64,000 nucleotides of DNA from Petropleomorpha daqingensis (GTDB lineage Bacteria; Actinomycetota; Actinomycetes; Mycobacteriales; Geodermatophilaceae), in NCBI RefSeq assembly GCF_013408985.1, contig NZ_JACBZT010000001.1, positions 4,295,197 to 4,359,196 on the forward strand. Reading direction: 5' to 3'. Numbering within the stretch: the first letter of the stretch is position 1; every line of letters begins with the position of its first letter. Below, piece by piece: positions 16,023-22,232 of the stretch. The notes under the pieces are model-generated. The model was given only the letters and a program-made list of their open reading frames with translations, was not told the DNA's origin and did no database searches. The translations under genes and the position numbers were made by a program.

Positions 16023-16460
16023 GTGCCCGCCTCGGACGACGCCACCGGCGATCTGCCGGTCACCGACACCGTCGTCGTCCCGGCCGGAGCCCTGGACTGG
16101 CGGTTCTCCCGCTCGTCCGGGCCCGGCGGCCAGGGGGTCAACACCGCCGACTCGCGGGTGGAGCTCTCGGTCTCGATCGACGCGCTCGGCCTGTCCGACG
16201 CCCAGCGGCAGCGGCTGACCGAGCGGCTGGGCAACCGGCTGGTGGACGGCGTGCTGACCATCGCCGCCAGCGAGCACCGCCAGCAGCTGCGCAACCGGCA
16301 GGCCGCCCGTGACCGGCTGGCCGCGGTGCTCCGCACCGCCCTGGCCCCGCCCCCGCCGGCGCGCCGCCGCACGAAGCCCACCCGCGGCAGTCAGGAACGG
16401 CGGATCCAGGCCAAGAAGCAGCGCGGCGAACTCAAGCGCTCCCGGCGCCGCTGGGACTGA
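16023..16460 (+). CDS. arfB: Peptidyl-tRNA hydrolase ArfB (ribosome rescue factor)
   Basis: The protein has 145 residues. The release-factor domain shows SRSSGPGGQGVNTADSR with GGQ at residues 35-37. The tail RRRTKPTRGSQERRIQAKKQ, then RSRRRW, is the positively charged, mRNA-channel-inserting tail of ArfB/YaeJ. It hydrolyses peptidyl-tRNA on ribosomes stalled without a stop codon. The GTG at 16023 is 15 bases after the previous stop. Its last 29 bases overlap the convergent GNAT gene. Confidence 0.93.
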   Translation: MPASDDATGDLPVTDTVVVPAGALDWRFSRSSGPGGQGVNTADSRVELSVSIDALGLSDAQRQRLTERLGNRLVDGVLTIAASEHRQQLRNRQAARDRLAAVLRTALAPPPPARRRTKPTRGSQERRIQAKKQRGELKRSRRRWD

Positions 16461-17106
16461 CGCGCACGAGCACCCACAGCGGGAGCTCGTCGTCCGCCGT
16501 CCTGATCGAGGCCGCCACCTCGAAGCCGAACGGGCGCAGGAAGGCCGCCTGCGCCCAGGCGAACACCGCGGTGGCGGCCGGCAGACCGCTCGCGTCGACC
16601 TCAGCCAGCCCGGCCTCCAGCAGCGCGGTCGCCGCGCCCCGGCGTCGGGCGGTCGGGCGGGTGCCCAGGTGCGCCAGCCACCAGTGCGGCCCGGCCGGGC
16701 GCTGCGCCGCGACCAGCTCGGCGGTGCGCCGCACGGCCGAGGCCCGGTCGGCGGACAGGAACGGCAGCTCCCGGTCCAGCGCGGCACGGACGTCGCCCGG
16801 CAGCGGTCGCGTGCCCGGTGCGCCCGGCGGCGGCTCCCAGGCGGCGACGGCGGTGACGTCGTCGGTGACCCAGGCGGTGCCGGTCGCGACGGCGCGGTGC
16901 CCGGCGGACAGCTCGTGCAGACGGGTCAGCCGCTGCATCCGGCCGTCGTCGGGCAGCGCCCAGCGCACCCAGCGCGAGTCGCCCAGCGCCAGGGTCAGCG
17001 TCGCGGCGATCCGCGGGATGTCGCGCTGCTCGGCGAGCCGGACCCGGGGCAGCGGCGGCGGGGGAGGGTCCTCGATCCGGCGGACGGTGGGACGCCGATC
17101 GGTCAC
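16432..17106 (-). CDS. GNAT-family N-acetyltransferase
   Basis: The protein has 224 residues from the GTG at 17106, which overlaps the stop of the upstream gene as GTGA. The acetyl-CoA binding motif is HLGTRPTARRRGAATALLEAGL, shortened here as R-R-R-G-A-A followed by a helix, and the fold ends with AFLRPFGFEVAASI. It transfers an acetyl group to an amine of unknown identity. Coupled translation with the small protein and sigma factor upstream makes it part of the CHAT/S8/sigma locus, at least transcriptionally. Its 3' end overlaps arfB by 29 bases. Confidence 0.85.
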   Translation of the reverse strand: MTDRRPTVRRIEDPPPPPLPRVRLAEQRDIPRIAATLTLALGDSRWVRWALPDDGRMQRLTRLHELSAGHRAVATGTAWVTDDVTAVAAWEPPPGAPGTRPLPGDVRAALDRELPFLSADRASAVRRTAELVAAQRPAGPHWWLAHLGTRPTARRRGAATALLEAGLAEVDASGLPAATAVFAWAQAAFLRPFGFEVAASIRTADDELPLWVLVRVSPSGAGSA

Positions 17107-17561
17107 CCGGAGATCCAGTCGGTGACCGCTCGCAGGCCGTCGGCGCCGAGGAACAGCAGCCGGAACTCGCCGCGCGGCGGCGGCGTCACCGTGAACCAGC
17201 CGACCTCGTCGACCTCGACCCGCCGCGGCCGGTCGCCCTGGGTCTGCACGTCGATCTCGCCCGGCTGCGGCGGCACCACCTGACCGGACAGCTGCCGGCT
17301 GGACAGCTCCACGTGCAGGGTCAGGGTGCCGAGCGTGAAGTCCAGCTCCCGGGCGCCGGTCGAGGTCGAGCGGACGCCGGCCAGCAGCTTGTCGCCCTGC
17401 TCGAGGGCGGCCAGCTCGGCCTCCAGCGAGTACAGCGAGAACAGCCCCTTGCCCATCGCGGTCACCCGCGGTGGGACGGCGTCCTCCTCCTGCAGCGCCT
17501 CGCCGAGCGCCGACAGCAGCTCGTCGTCGTCCGGCTCCCACCGTTCGGACATGTCGCTCAC
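17103..17561 (-). CDS. Small beta-rich partner protein of the sigma/CHAT/S8 locus
   Basis: The protein has 152 residues from the GTG at 17561 (overlapping the sigma factor stop as GTGA); an ATG at 17552 is the alternative. An acidic N-terminus (WEPDDDELLSALGEALQEED) leads into a predicted beta-sandwich: LDFTLGTLTLHVELS, RQLSGQVVPPQPGEIDVQ, VDEVGWFTVTPPPRGEFRLL. The last repeats resemble carboxypeptidase-regulatory-like folds. Proteins of this form accompany ECF sigma factors near CHAT genes in actinobacteria as far as I recall. It has no TM segment. It may be a cytoplasmic regulator or anti-sigma-like partner; this is inference from position. Confidence 0.65.
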   Translation of the reverse strand: MSDMSERWEPDDDELLSALGEALQEEDAVPPRVTAMGKGLFSLYSLEAELAALEQGDKLLAGVRSTSTGARELDFTLGTLTLHVELSSRQLSGQVVPPQPGEIDVQTQGDRPRRVEVDEVGWFTVTPPPRGEFRLLFLGADGLRAVTDWISG

Positions 17562-18148
17562 CGCCGTCCCCGGTCGAAGTCCAGCTCCATGAAGTCGGCC
17601 ACCGGCGTGCTGCGCCGCAGCTTGTCCAGACAGCGGGCCCGCGTGGGCCCGAGCCCGCCCACCGGGGTGTCGAGCCGCTCGCCGATCTCGACGTAGGACA
17701 GCGGCGGGTCGTGCAGCAGCAGCCGGAGCAGCTCCTGGCAGCGCGGCGTCAGCGAGGCGAATCCCGCGCGGATGGCCGCGTTGCGCTCCGCCGTCTCGAC
17801 CAGGTGCTCGGCCGTGGCGTCGCCGGGCTCGCTGGGGACGTCGCCGTCGATCGCCGTCTCGCGCTCCCGGCGCCGCTTGCCGACGTCGAGCACCCGCAGG
17901 CACTCGCGCTCCGTCGTCCGGGCCAGCCAGCCGGGCAGCGCCGCCGGCTCGTTGATCTGCCCGAGCCGCTCGAGCAGCTTGAGCCAGACGCTCTGCGAGA
18001 CGTCGTCGGCGTCGGCGTCGGAGAGGCGGAAGCGCCGGCACACCGACCACAGCAGCGGCGCCAGCCGCTCCACCAGCTCGTCCCAGGCCAGCTGCTCGCC
18101 GAAGCGCGCGCTCAGGAAGAGGTCACCGATCGGCACGTCCTCAGGCAT
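17558..18148 (-). CDS. ECF-type RNA polymerase sigma factor
   Basis: The protein has 196 residues from the ATG at 18148, with the strong ribosome site GAAGGAGGGG. Region 2 covers about residues 20-85 (WDELVERLAPLLWSVCRRF, ADADDVSQSVWLKLLERL). Region 4 covers about 130-180 (SLTPRCQELLRLLL, PLSYVEIGERLDTPVGGLGP, RARCLDKLRR). No classical membrane anti-sigma gene is adjacent. The partner at 17103 overlaps by 4 bases and the S8 protease ends 53 bases upstream. Targets are unknown. Confidence 0.9.
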   Translation of the reverse strand: MPEDVPIGDLFLSARFGEQLAWDELVERLAPLLWSVCRRFRLSDADADDVSQSVWLKLLERLGQINEPAALPGWLARTTERECLRVLDVGKRRRERETAIDGDVPSEPGDATAEHLVETAERNAAIRAGFASLTPRCQELLRLLLHDPPLSYVEIGERLDTPVGGLGPTRARCLDKLRRSTPVADFMELDFDRGRR

Positions 18149-18201
18149 GGCCCCTCCTTCACCGTCGAACGGCTCGGCGGACGGGCCGTGGACCCCCGCC
18201 G

Positions 18202-19455
18202 TCACGGTCGGGGCAGATCTTGCCGGACCGCCTGCACCGCCTCCGGAGGGGTCTTACCCCCGGCGATCTGCGCAGCCACCAGACCGGTGACGTGCGCGGA
18301 GGCGAAGGAGGTACCCGACCAGTTGGCGTAGCCGCCGAAGGACACGGTCTCGTACTCCACCGGCTTCGTCTTCTCGATCGGCACCTGCACGCGCTGGTCG
18401 CCGGTCTCGTCGAGGTACGTGCTGACGACCTCCACGCCCGGGGCGAAGACGTCGATCCACGGTGCCGGCTTCGTCTCGTCCTTGCCGTCGATCGGGTTGA
18501 AGGACGCGGGCACGCCCTGCGCGTCGACCGCGCCCACGGCGAGCACGCCGTCGAGGGCGGCCGGGAACAGCGGCGCGGCGCGGCGGGGCATGCCCTGGTC
18601 CTCGCGGTCCTTGTCCTCGAGCTCGTTCGTGCCGTGGTTGCCCGCGGCGGCGACGACGGCCATGGTCGGGGTGAGCTGGGCGATCGCCCGCTCGAGCACC
18701 ATCGGGGCCTGCCCGTCGGCGGTGGAGCAGCCGAGGGACAGGTTGAGCACCTGGACGCCGGAGTCGCGGTAGTCGGCGAGCCGTTGCGCCAGGGTCCACA
18801 GGGGCATGGTCCAGCCCGCGTCGGGAGTCGTCCCGGGGGCCAGGGCGGTGCGGACGTCGAGGTCGGCGGTGGGCGCGAGGCTCAGCACGATGCCGGCGAT
18901 GAACGTCGCGTGCCCCTCCCACCACTGCCGCTCCTGGTCGGGCTGCACGTGGGTCAGCGCGTCGGGGTCGGTGTAGTACCGGCCCCCGAGCCGGGTGTGC
19001 GGGTCGAGCCGGGTGTCCAGGATCCCGACGCGCACCCGGCGCCCGCTGCGGGGCTGGGCCGTGTACGCGCGGGGGATCTCGCCCTCCTCCGGCCTCGTGG
19101 GCCGGGTGAACCCCCCGGCGTTGGTGTACGGCTTGAACTGGACGCCGGTGAGGATGCGGTTCTTGCCCAGCGTCGGCGACCACCCGGCGTAGCGGTACTG
19201 GGTGATGGCACGCAGGTTGCCCAGCACGCTGTCGAGCGGGCCGTGCACGTGCTCGGGTTCGCGGTCGGGGACCTCTTCCTTGCGGGCCTGCTCCAGGCGT
19301 GCGGCGAGGTCGTGCACGTCGGCCAGCTGGACCAGGGTGAGGCCGAGCCGGGGGTCGGTGCTCTCCGGTGTCGCCCCGTTGCCCAGCAGGTCGAGCACCA
19401 TCCGGAGGTGCTCGTCGGCCACCACGATGTGCTCGTCGTACGCGTCTTTGCCCAT
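18202..19455 (-). CDS. Cytoplasmic S8 (subtilisin-like) serine peptidase
   Basis: The protein has 417 residues. The catalytic triad is complete: Asp147 (GILDTRLD), His182 (EGHATFIAGIV), Ser383 (SGTSFASAHVTG), with oxyanion Asn273 (AAAGNHGTN). It has no signal peptide or TM segment, and the first 140 residues are a non-classical N-terminal domain rich in helices, so it probably acts inside the cell rather than as a secreted protease. The ATG at 19455 follows GGGAGAGACC. It heads the minus-strand operon with the sigma factor and is divergent from the TPR-CHAT gene, so it may process a locus partner. Confidence 0.9.
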   Translation of the reverse strand: MGKDAYDEHIVVADEHLRMVLDLLGNGATPESTDPRLGLTLVQLADVHDLAARLEQARKEEVPDREPEHVHGPLDSVLGNLRAITQYRYAGWSPTLGKNRILTGVQFKPYTNAGGFTRPTRPEEGEIPRAYTAQPRSGRRVRVGILDTRLDPHTRLGGRYYTDPDALTHVQPDQERQWWEGHATFIAGIVLSLAPTADLDVRTALAPGTTPDAGWTMPLWTLAQRLADYRDSGVQVLNLSLGCSTADGQAPMVLERAIAQLTPTMAVVAAAGNHGTNELEDKDREDQGMPRRAAPLFPAALDGVLAVGAVDAQGVPASFNPIDGKDETKPAPWIDVFAPGVEVVSTYLDETGDQRVQVPIEKTKPVEYETVSFGGYANWSGTSFASAHVTGLVAAQIAGGKTPPEAVQAVRQDLPRP

Positions 19456-19550
19456 GGTCTCTCCCGTGTCGCGGAATCGTGCGTCTCGATATGCAGAGGG
19501 CGCTCGCAGCGCTCAGATTCGTTTCCCACCGCTTTTCTTGGCAGGGCCCA
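19456..19550. promoter_or_regulatory. Divergent promoter region between S8 protease and CHAT protease
   Basis: These 95 bases must carry both promoters. They are noticeably less GC-rich than the genes and contain CGCTCGCAGCGCTC, a short inverted repeat. I found no confident -35/-10 pair of the ECF type (GGAAC with CGTC at 16-18 bases), so autoregulation by the locus sigma factor is not supported by what I can see. Confidence 0.4.
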
Positions 19551-22232
19551 ATGTCGTTGACAAGGGCTTCGCGTCCGGCAGGCTGGGACGTCGTGGACGG
19601 GACGACGCTCGAGCTGGCGCAGGAGGCGTTGCGCCTGGCCGAGGCCGACCCGGTCGAGGCCGTCACGCGGGCGCGCAGCGCGGTCCGCCGCGCCGAGCGG
19701 TCCGCCGACGGAGTGGCGCGGGCGGTGGCGGAGCGGGCGTGGGGTCTCGCGCTGCGGCACGGGGGGCACCTCGACAAGGCGCTGGTGCACCTGCGCCGGG
19801 CGGTGGACGTCGCGCTCGAGGCGGGCGCGCCGGAGGTCGCCGGCGAGGCGCGGATGTCGCTGGCCTACGCACTGGTGGAGCGCGGCCGGGCCGGGCAGGC
19901 CCTCGACGAGATCGGCCGGGCGTTGCGGCAGCTGGACGGCGTCGCCCACGCCCGCGCGCAGACCCAGCGCGGCTCGATCCTGCTCGACATGGGCCGCCAC
20001 GCCGAGGCGCTCGAGGAGTACGAGGCGGCGCTGCCGGTCCTGCAGGAGGCCGGCGACCTGCTGTGGAGCTACCGCGTCGTGTGGAACCGCGGGCTGGCGC
20101 GCGCCTACCGCCACGAGTTCCTCGGCGCCGAGGAGGACCTGCGCCGCGCCGAGGAGCTCGCCGACCGGCTGGACCTGCCGCTGTCGGTCGGCTTCGCCCA
20201 GGCCAACCTCGCCTTCGTCCTCGGCCTGCGCGGTGACGTGCCGGCCGCGTTGGATCACTCCGCCCGCGCCGAGGAGCGCATCCGCGCGCACGGGGCCCAG
20301 CTCGGCGAGCTGCTCAAGGACCGCAGCGAGCTGCTGCTGTCGGTCCGGCTGGTCTCGGAGGCCCGTGAGACGGCGGAGGCGTCGGTCGCCGAGTACGAGC
20401 GCGAGCGGCGCAGCATCAAGCTGCCGCAGGTGCGGCTGGTGCTCGCGCAGTCCGCGCTGCTGGAGGGGGACGCTGACGGCGCGCTGCGGCACGCCCGGCG
20501 GGCGGTCGCCGAGTTCTCCCGGCAGCGCCGTCCGGAGTTCACGGCGCTGGCCCGGCTCGGCGTCCTGCAGGCCCAGCACGCCGCCGGCGCGGTCCCGCCG
20601 GCCGGGGCGCGGGCGGCCGAGGAGGCCGCGGCGACGCTGGCCGCCGTCCGCTGGCCGGCCGCGGCGATGGAGGCGCGGCTGCTGGCCGCCGCGCTGCTGC
20701 GCGACCGGGGCCGTCCGGACGACGCCGACCGCCACCTGGGCGCGGCCGCGGCGACCCGGCGCACCGGTCCCGCGACCCTGCGGGCGCGCGGCTGGTACGC
20801 CGAGGCGCGGCTGCGGGCGGAGGCCGGACGACGGCAGGCCGCGTGCACCGCGCTGCGGACCGGCCTGCGCATCCTCGACGAGCACCGCGCCGTCCTCGGG
20901 GCCACCGACGTCCGGGCGCACGCCGCCGCGCACCGCAGCGAGCTGGTGGAGCTGGGGCTGCGCCTTGCCCTGGACGGCGGCAGCCCGCGGCAGGTGCTCG
21001 AGTGGGTGGAGCGCGGCAAGGCCACCGACCTGCTCGTGCAGCGCCCGGTCCGCCCGCCGGAGGACCCGGAGGTCGCCCAGGCGCTGGCCGAGCTGCGGGC
21101 CACCGTGCTGCAGATCAACGAGCTGCAGGCCGGCGGCGAACGCGGACCGGCCCTCGACGAGCTGATGGCGCGGCAGCCGCTGCTGGAGCGCCGGGTCCGC
21201 GACGCCACGCGGCGGATCGGCGGCGCGGGCACCGGCCGGCTGCCGGCGCCGGTGCCGGTGGGGGCGCTCGCGGAGCGGTTGGACGGCGCGGCGCTCGTGG
21301 AGCTGTTCGTCCTGGACGGCGTCCTCTGCGCGGTGACCGTCGTCGGCGCCCGCAGCCGCGTGCACCGCCTCGCCGCGACCGCCGACGTCGAGGGACTGCT
21401 GGACCGGGTGCTGCACGCGCTGCGCCGCCTCGTGCGCCGCAACGTCGACGCCGCGGGGCGGGCCGCGGCGGAGGACCTGCTCCGCGCCGCCGCTGCCCGC
21501 CTCGACGAGCGCCTGCTGGGGACGCTGCCGGAGCTGGGGGACCGGCCGCTGGTCGTCGTCCCGACCGGGGCGCTGCAGTGCCTGCCCTGGGCGGTGCTGC
21601 CCTCGTGCGCGGCGCGGCCGGTCGCCGTCGCTCCGTCGGCGTCGCTCTGGCACGCCGCGCGCAGCCGCCCCGTGGAGACCGGGGGCCGCGTCGTCGTGGC
21701 CGCCGGGCCGAGCCTGGAGGGCGCGGTCTCGGAGGTGCGCGGCGTCGGGGACGTGCACGGCGTCGAGCCGATGCTGCCGCCCGAGGCCACGGTCGCGCGG
21801 GTGCTCAAGGAGATGGAGGGTGCGGCGCTGGTCCACCTGGCCGCGCACGGCCGGCTGGTCGCGGACAACCCGCTGTTCAGCGACGTCCTGCTCGCCGACG
21901 GCCCGCTGCTGGCCTACGACGTGGAACGGCTCGACCGCGCGCCGCACACCGTCGTCCTCGCCGCCTGCGACACGGCCCGCTCGGTGGTCTGCGCCGGCGA
22001 CGAGCTGCTCGGCCTCGGCGCGGTGTTCCTCGGCGGCGGCACCGCGCAGCTGGTCGCGCCGATGCTGCCGGTGCCCGACGTGGAGACCGCCGAGATCATG
22101 GGCACCTTCCACCGGATGCTGGCCGCCGGCTCCGGCGCGGCCGACGCCTTGGTGCGCACTCGCGCGCAGGTGGGGGAGGACGTCGGTGCGGCCGCCGCGG
22201 CGAGCTTCGTCGTCCTGGGCGCCGGGGTCTAG
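19551..22232 (+). CDS. TPR-CHAT caspase-like protease
   Basis: The protein has 893 residues from the ATG at 19551; GTG 19593 is another choice. Residues about 20-520 are tandem tetratricopeptide helices (ALRHGGHLDKALVHLRRAV, LDMGRHAEALEEYEAALPVL, and others). Residues about 600-893 form a CHAT domain. The caspase-type dyad is visible: His766 in VHLAAHG and Cys806 in VLAACDTARS. CHAT proteins are caspase-like proteases, often activated through their TPR region. Divergence from an S8 protease, ECF sigma factor and small partner suggests a proteolytic signalling module. The substrate is unknown. The stop shares CTAG with the next convergent gene. Confidence 0.9.
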   Translation: MSLTRASRPAGWDVVDGTTLELAQEALRLAEADPVEAVTRARSAVRRAERSADGVARAVAERAWGLALRHGGHLDKALVHLRRAVDVALEAGAPEVAGEARMSLAYALVERGRAGQALDEIGRALRQLDGVAHARAQTQRGSILLDMGRHAEALEEYEAALPVLQEAGDLLWSYRVVWNRGLARAYRHEFLGAEEDLRRAEELADRLDLPLSVGFAQANLAFVLGLRGDVPAALDHSARAEERIRAHGAQLGELLKDRSELLLSVRLVSEARETAEASVAEYERERRSIKLPQVRLVLAQSALLEGDADGALRHARRAVAEFSRQRRPEFTALARLGVLQAQHAAGAVPPAGARAAEEAAATLAAVRWPAAAMEARLLAAALLRDRGRPDDADRHLGAAAATRRTGPATLRARGWYAEARLRAEAGRRQAACTALRTGLRILDEHRAVLGATDVRAHAAAHRSELVELGLRLALDGGSPRQVLEWVERGKATDLLVQRPVRPPEDPEVAQALAELRATVLQINELQAGGERGPALDELMARQPLLERRVRDATRRIGGAGTGRLPAPVPVGALAERLDGAALVELFVLDGVLCAVTVVGARSRVHRLAATADVEGLLDRVLHALRRLVRRNVDAAGRAAAEDLLRAAAARLDERLLGTLPELGDRPLVVVPTGALQCLPWAVLPSCAARPVAVAPSASLWHAARSRPVETGGRVVVAAGPSLEGAVSEVRGVGDVHGVEPMLPPEATVARVLKEMEGAALVHLAAHGRLVADNPLFSDVLLADGPLLAYDVERLDRAPHTVVLAACDTARSVVCAGDELLGLGAVFLGGGTAQLVAPMLPVPDVETAEIMGTFHRMLAAGSGAADALVRTRAQVGEDVGAAAAASFVVLGAGV

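Follow-up and report, generated by a model that had tools for sequence, protein, structure and literature searches.

A 64,000-nucleotide stretch of the Petropleomorpha daqingensis genome (contig NZ_JACBZT010000001.1, positions 4,295,197 to 4,359,196; hereafter the window) carries a TPR-CHAT protease, an S8 subtilase, an extracytoplasmic function (ECF)-type sigma factor and a small protein. The linkage of these four genes is supported across the whole actinobacterial phylum. The module divides into two halves, sigma factor with small protein and CHAT with S8, and the halves co-occur even when they lie in separate loci. We read the small protein as a soluble anti-sigma factor which the CHAT/S8 pair would inactivate, freeing an ECF54-type sigma factor, and give this reading a probability of roughly 45%. 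The four-gene context is already in print for ECF54 and hence is not new. New here are the two-half division, the architecture of the small protein with its hinge arginine, the prediction of a zymogen-like S8 protein and the conserved catalytic centers.

Linkage across actinobacteria

The family set consists of 16 neighborhoods from the family of the window's genome. For the phylum set, the small protein was sought in 396 genomes, with nine candidates scored per genome; 35 were positive, including that of the window, and yielded 37 further loci, several on short contigs. Because these loci had been fetched through the small protein, the search was repeated with the sigma factor as anchor, taking the best 80 of at least 568 sigma relatives in named genomes (three of the 80 repeat loci of the earlier sets). 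The family-mate locus L037 is identical to L122, a Geodermatophilaceae record.

CHAT is present in 15 loci of the family set, S8 in 14 and the sigma factor in 15. In the phylum set the sigma gene adjoins the small gene in 33 loci (gap of at most about 440 bases), with CHAT in 24 and S8 in 22. Seventy-five of the sigma-anchored loci have room for a small gene after the sigma gene, and in 72 of them it follows immediately on the same strand. Of the 54 loci whose flanks are complete, 46 have both proteases within 7 kb; those that do not are L093, L102, L116, L129, L134, L141, L144 and L147. Model-free clustering of the called genes of 53 loci and the window recovered CHAT in 36 loci, the sigma factor in 30, the small protein in 30 and S8 in 29. 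It gave no fifth family, the next most frequent one occurring in seven loci.

An earlier interpretation made from the letters of the window (the sequence-only reading) had described a five-gene locus, including a GNAT acetyltransferase, and had named rare co-occurrence in relatives as one result that would refute it. Four of the five genes do co-occur. The GNAT gene has no homologue in the 16 family neighborhoods, so that "five genes" should read four, and GNAT was ruled out as a fifth partner.

At the level of whole genomes, the small protein occurs in 22 and CHAT in 41 of 96 genomes of the family. CHAT is present in all 22 small-positive genomes versus 19 of 74 small-negative ones (Fisher p 9e-11, uncorrected for relatedness). 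It lies within 10 kb of the small gene in 21 of the 22; the exception is G085, which has six CHAT matches, none fitting the module model. Clusters of CHAT matches are seen in family-mates, with seven at G054:C8:446877-510920 and four at G085:C20:45707-62212. Plasmid records gave one match, an unannotated 11.85-Mb record labeled as plasmid I of Nonomuraea gerenzanensis, with all four genes and CHAT in two frames.

Several loci hold more than one copy of some genes. L118 (Actinomadura rubrisoli, NZ_SMKU01000172.1) has two full four-gene modules arranged as mirror images within 12.5 kb. In L030 (G026:C54:254000-273999), two small proteins, indistinguishable in the alignment, lie beside two clearly different S8/CHAT pairs, and no sigma factor was found in this 20-kb stretch. 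Genome G137 (L040, L041) has three copies of the small protein, two of them without the module sigma nearby; the sigma match of L041 is weak. L070 packs three small proteins, two S8, two CHAT and one sigma factor into 11 kb. The second module copy of L114 has S8 and sigma factor, and the only CHAT found in that locus lies with the other copy.

The two halves and their proteins

Co-evolution was scored from pairwise protein distances as a partial correlation that removes shared history, over 57 non-redundant four-gene loci with bootstrap ranges. The sigma-small pair has the highest value of all pairs, 0.56 (0.37–0.68), and is clearly set apart by this score. Values of 0.20 for CHAT-sigma, 0.17 for S8-sigma and 0.15 for S8-small were obtained. 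In a redundant version with 82 loci, sigma-small reached 0.60 and CHAT-S8 0.46. CHAT and S8 are taken as a unit because of their joint presence at separate loci, not because of correlation. The sigma-small pair stands without either protease in nine phylum loci, two of which, L045 and L075, are at contig ends. Of the seven other such genomes, five (G181, G403, G412, G213 and G257) have a module-type CHAT elsewhere; these unlinked calls, made on partial loci, score 500–800 bits with the module model. A module-type S8 lies beside the unlinked CHAT in four of the five, and in G403 the two proteases are on different contigs. Twenty proteins, 16 from beside protease-free sigma-small pairs and four from the window, were scanned for other proteases and are mostly ordinary genes; the neighbor of the protease-free pair of L057 is one PmbA/TldD metallopeptidase. 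No natural fusion of sigma factor and small protein was detected in L024–L156 at E < 1e-8. Covariation between the two proteins (117 pairs, effective 86) reached a top score of 6.4 standard deviations versus at most 3.5 in 20 shuffles, and eight of the ten best pairs, by a hand count from the list, fall in residues 12–62 of the small protein.

The sigma factor of the window is probably of the ECF54 type. The profile of its family alignment A2 aligns with solved ECF sigma factors over most of its length. Region 4 holds the motif ..PVGGLGPTRARCL.., and A2 contains a near-invariant GSIGPTRxR. In the window protein Sigma70_r4 reaches 18.3 bits, below its cut-off; Sigma70_r2 and TIGR02937 are both over theirs. 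A 2022 review (PMC8999054), in its passages on the group, lists CHAT, a subtilase and a "carboxypeptidase" as ECF54 neighbors, takes a Geodermatophilus amargosae protein as the model sigma and cites Casas-Pastor 2021 and Huang 2015. The loci collected here agree with this context in the two proteases (the 46 of 54 above) and in the carboxypeptidase-type domain. Within the openly licensed literature, ECF54 came up in one relevant paper, and searches combining CHAT or SAVED-CHAT with a sigma factor and further terms returned none; such a search may miss later ECF54 work.

The AlphaFold2 model of the small protein, built with 92 sequences, has a mean predicted local distance difference test (pLDDT) score of 86.8 and consists of helices at 12–26 and 31–62 followed by a beta-sandwich at 71–146. 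The pLDDT is 96–98 across most of the sandwich and 59–64 for residues 51–70. The sandwich is of a common type, resembling Ig-, FN3- and CBM56-like domains with a best Z of 9.2 over 81 residues. PF13620 (CarboxypepD_reg) matches 43 of the 92 family members (E ≤ 0.05, best 3e-7), the window's own protein being without a match. These domain matches most likely explain the "carboxypeptidase" label of the ECF54 context: the neighbor so named would be this small protein, with a carboxypeptidase-regulatory-like fold and not an enzyme. No Pfam anti-sigma domain was found in the window's small protein, and one of the 92 relatives has an RsiG-like match (E 0.003). Solved structures gave two weak matches to the family profile, both to a biofilm-associated surface protein.

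The helices and the sandwich are joined by a hinge that contains Arg64. This arginine is present in 134 of the 136 rows that span the hinge; the alignment has 139 rows, and L101 and L102, which are truncated, and L143, which is masked there, were left out. It is followed by Gly, Ser, Ala or Thr in 128 of the 134. The spacing to the preceding Asp ranges from 8 to 13 (20 in one case) and that to flanking conserved residues is variable, which suggests that the arginine is retained while its surroundings slide; the aligner may favor matching of this residue. A binomial estimate for an arginine in the linker (mean length 15.3, arginine frequency 8%) is 7e-17, ignoring relatedness. Arg64 looks like a protease cut site.

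The alignments indicate that the catalytic centers of both proteases are conserved. All 39 rows of the S8 alignment have the catalytic Asp, His, Asn and Ser. The triad in the window protein is complete, as had been claimed for it (Asp147/His182/Ser383, with Asn273), and its N-terminus, MGKDAYDEH, has no evident signal peptide, again as claimed. CHAT keeps its His and Cys in 42 of 44 rows; the two remaining rows are pieces of the L043 gene in which this region is missing. In a second alignment, all 73 rows have the Cys. Asp904 (numbering of the long open reading frame) is found in 65 of these 73; judging from separase work, it may bear on a preference for arginine. The nearest solved relative of the CHAT profile is the "CHAT domain-containing protein" 8rot (E 1e-12). 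Next come "CHAT domain protein" and Csx29 chains (E 5e-7 to 2e-5), the former presumably Craspase entries.

The S8 protein has a pro-subtilisin-like N-terminal domain at about 9–103 and a catalytic domain at 138–395. Its model (predicted template modeling score 0.90) shows an N-terminal alpha-beta domain, a low-confidence linker and then the catalytic domain. It superposes on unautoprocessed pro-subtilisin E over residues 6..417 with Z 29.3, 297 residues and a root-mean-square deviation of 3.7. The window's S8 is thus predicted to be a pro-subtilisin-like zymogen with the prodomain docked on an intact catalytic center, where, judging by the model, it would inhibit the enzyme. This covers the S8 type of the window alone, since the S8 N-termini of relatives are diverse. 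Ahead of the catalytic domain, the S8 proteins of L063, L064, L065, L066 and L140 have long runs of short repeats (NPAYQG-, NPGYQG-, NPSFFG- or TPYPGG-type) that resemble a long tether.

Proposed switch and its alternatives

The sigma-small and CHAT-S8 pairs appear to need each other, because they co-occur when unlinked. The simplest link between them is probably that the proteases cut the small protein in its hinge and free the sigma factor, an idea of the sequence-only reading to which S8 is now added as a second stage; its proteolytic switch is a plausible hypothesis. In the scheme we favor, the helical segment of the small protein would clamp the sigma factor, with the flexible hinge joining this segment to the beta-sandwich. 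A cytoplasmic signal would activate TPR-CHAT and, in the simplest order, CHAT would convert the S8 zymogen. CHAT or S8 would then cut the small protein at or near Arg64. The cut protein would release the sigma factor, which would transcribe its targets. A precedent is given in passages of Strecker et al. (PMC10028731), where Csx29 cuts Csx30, an inhibitor of the ECF-like CASP-sigma. By analogy, a Csx30-like role would fall most readily to the small protein, since it is adjacent to the sigma gene, is the closest co-evolving partner of the sigma factor and has the hinge arginine. The comparison with Craspase, already drawn by the sequence-only reading, proved a good guide to the logic; no relation of the small protein to Csx30 was seen, and no test aimed at one was made.

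Several observations weigh against this scheme. The partial correlation of CHAT-S8 is only 0.28 (0.10–0.52) and overlaps that of CHAT-small, 0.25 (0.08–0.48). CHAT is missing altogether from G481 and G477, two genomes in which the sigma-small pair stands alone. The small gene is absent downstream of the sigma gene in 3 of the 75 sigma-anchored loci (L102, L136, L141). Of the 16 loci of the family set, eight have the small gene after the sigma gene on the same strand, five have the two genes convergent and two have them apart, and one has a small gene with no sigma factor in the stretch. Four of the 37 phylum loci have the small protein without its sigma factor (L040, L041, L058 and L067, two of them on short or cut contigs). 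In the covariation analysis the pairings of two sigma positions spread over many sites; the signal was therefore read as phylogeny and was not used as a contact map. The fold search, in which the helical part was not folded separately, matched the beta-sandwich alone (70–152); no anti-sigma fold was among its matches, which speaks neither for nor against one. Two of the 136 hinge rows break the rule: L076 has no arginine, and in the second small protein of L114 (L114:8089-8628), with a shortened hinge, the arginine stands before Ile. Arg64 may instead be structural or bind the sigma factor. Footprints upstream of S8 and CHAT in 15 Lentzea/Saccharothrix-type and 8 Micromonospora-type loci contained conserved blocks, among which no ECF-type promoter was recognized by eye. 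After cleavage, the N-terminal part of Csx30 still binds the sigma factor, according to passages of PMC9729208, so a single cut may not suffice. Proteolytic control of ECF54 without an anti-sigma factor has also been proposed (PMC8999054). The complete form of the scheme, a CRISPR-free, wholly cytoplasmic cascade across the phylum in which a CHAT sensor activates an S8 zymogen and a cut after the hinge arginine of a new type of soluble anti-sigma factor frees an ECF54 sigma factor, is doubtful as a whole.

It is likewise rather unlikely that there is no anti-sigma factor, the proteases degrading the sigma factor until a signal stops them and the small protein serving as an adaptor or sensor that delivers it. 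Direct control by the proteases was put forward for ECF54 from the same gene context (PMC8999054); the review lists the control on gene-context grounds, and its passages on the group name no ECF54 experiment. The four-gene linkage is equally compatible with it. However, the sigma-small pair persists without a linked protease and co-evolves most tightly, which suits a sigma factor and its regulator, and the near-invariant cut-like arginine sits in the hinge of the small protein. An adaptor role would accommodate these three features too.

The proteases could also be the output. The sigma factor and small protein would then regulate transcription of CHAT and S8 as an effector pair, such as a protease cascade that harms the cell itself or acts against phage and has other cellular substrates. 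CHAT-S8 does behave like a separate unit, standing away from the sigma-small pair in several genomes, the S8 protein is zymogen-like and the spread is patchy (22 of 96 family genomes), as for accessory or defense genes. Yet PADLOC matched no defense model beyond a generic subtilase one, inspection by eye showed no ECF-type promoter ahead of the protease genes in either aligned group, and the hinge arginine is left unexplained unless there is feedback cleavage as well. We regard this as a little less probable than sigma degradation. An operon-level association without direct interaction, with four regulators of a shared process each having other partners, would suit the widely varying gene order and orientation and an association known here from genes alone, but it is improbable, for the four-gene tie survives rearrangement, duplication and unlinking across the whole phylum.

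Locus layout and comparison with known systems

The source genome has 5.38 Mb in one contig, and the G+C content of the window is 75%. All five genes lie where the sequence-only reading had placed them, and its His766/Cys806 numbering is correct for a CHAT start at 19551. The GNAT, small, sigma and S8 genes overlap by four bases at each junction, and the TPR-CHAT gene is divergent. The genome contains one CHAT domain match. By eye, no membrane anchor is apparent in the sequences of the window's four proteins. The locus had been called CRISPR-free, and this agrees with the absence of Cas1 (PF01867) from the 5.38-Mb genome, a single test in which Cas7-11 was not searched for.

Table. Genes of the locus, in window coordinates
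Feature	Positions	Strand	Remarks
GNAT acetyltransferase	16432-17106	-	Acetyltransf_1 22.3 bits (cut-off 20.7); overlapping operon neighbor, not a conserved part
Small protein, 152 aa	17103-17561	-	Helix-plus-beta; no Pfam match over cut-off, no NCBIfam match
ECF-type sigma factor, 215 aa	17558-18205	-	TIGR02937 sigma70-ECF 69.7 bits; Sigma70_r2 43 bits
S8 subtilase, 417 aa	18202-19455	-	Peptidase_S8 84 bits
TPR-CHAT protease, 893 aa	19551-22232	+	CHAT PF12770 105 bits and TPR matches; His766/Cys806

Elsewhere in the window, ARAGORN makes a tRNA-like call at 245-338 with the anticodon unresolved; it overlaps a GC3-rich open reading frame (197-664) and is probably spurious.

The predicted S8 form is close to pro-subtilisins (pro-subtilisin E, pro-Tk-subtilisin, PCSK9), to which prodomain and S8 domain align with Z 27–29 over about 280–300 residues. 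Unlike these, the window protein has no evident signal peptide and its gene is linked to CHAT. With release of the RseA/DegS type (RseA, RsiW), the scheme shares the principle that proteolysis of an inhibitor frees a sigma factor, as outlined in passages of PMC10028731; it differs in that the window's four proteins, from their sequences, lack an apparent membrane anchor. The locus resembles ECF54 in its sigma factor with CHAT, subtilase and "carboxypeptidase" neighbors, and the window is from the Geodermatophilaceae, like the model sigma from Geodermatophilus amargosae. In its passages on ECF54 the review treats the group as without an anti-sigma factor, whereas here the neighbor is read as a non-enzymatic helix-plus-beta protein paired with the sigma factor. 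Should the small protein prove to be the missing anti-sigma factor and to carry its own cut site, this would show how a phylum-wide sigma group works.

Craspase (Cas7-11/gRAMP, Csx29, Csx30, CASP-sigma) is similar in having a TPR-CHAT protease with a His/Cys dyad, an ECF-like sigma factor and a third, candidate cuttable component. It differs in that here the genome has no Cas1, the four conserved families include no effector gene and S8 is added. The partner in the window has 152 residues; Csx30 is far larger. If the switch operates as proposed, CHAT-sigma proteolytic switching exists outside CRISPR, and if the cascade holds, Craspase would be a CRISPR-linked relative of a CHAT-sigma logic of wider occurrence.

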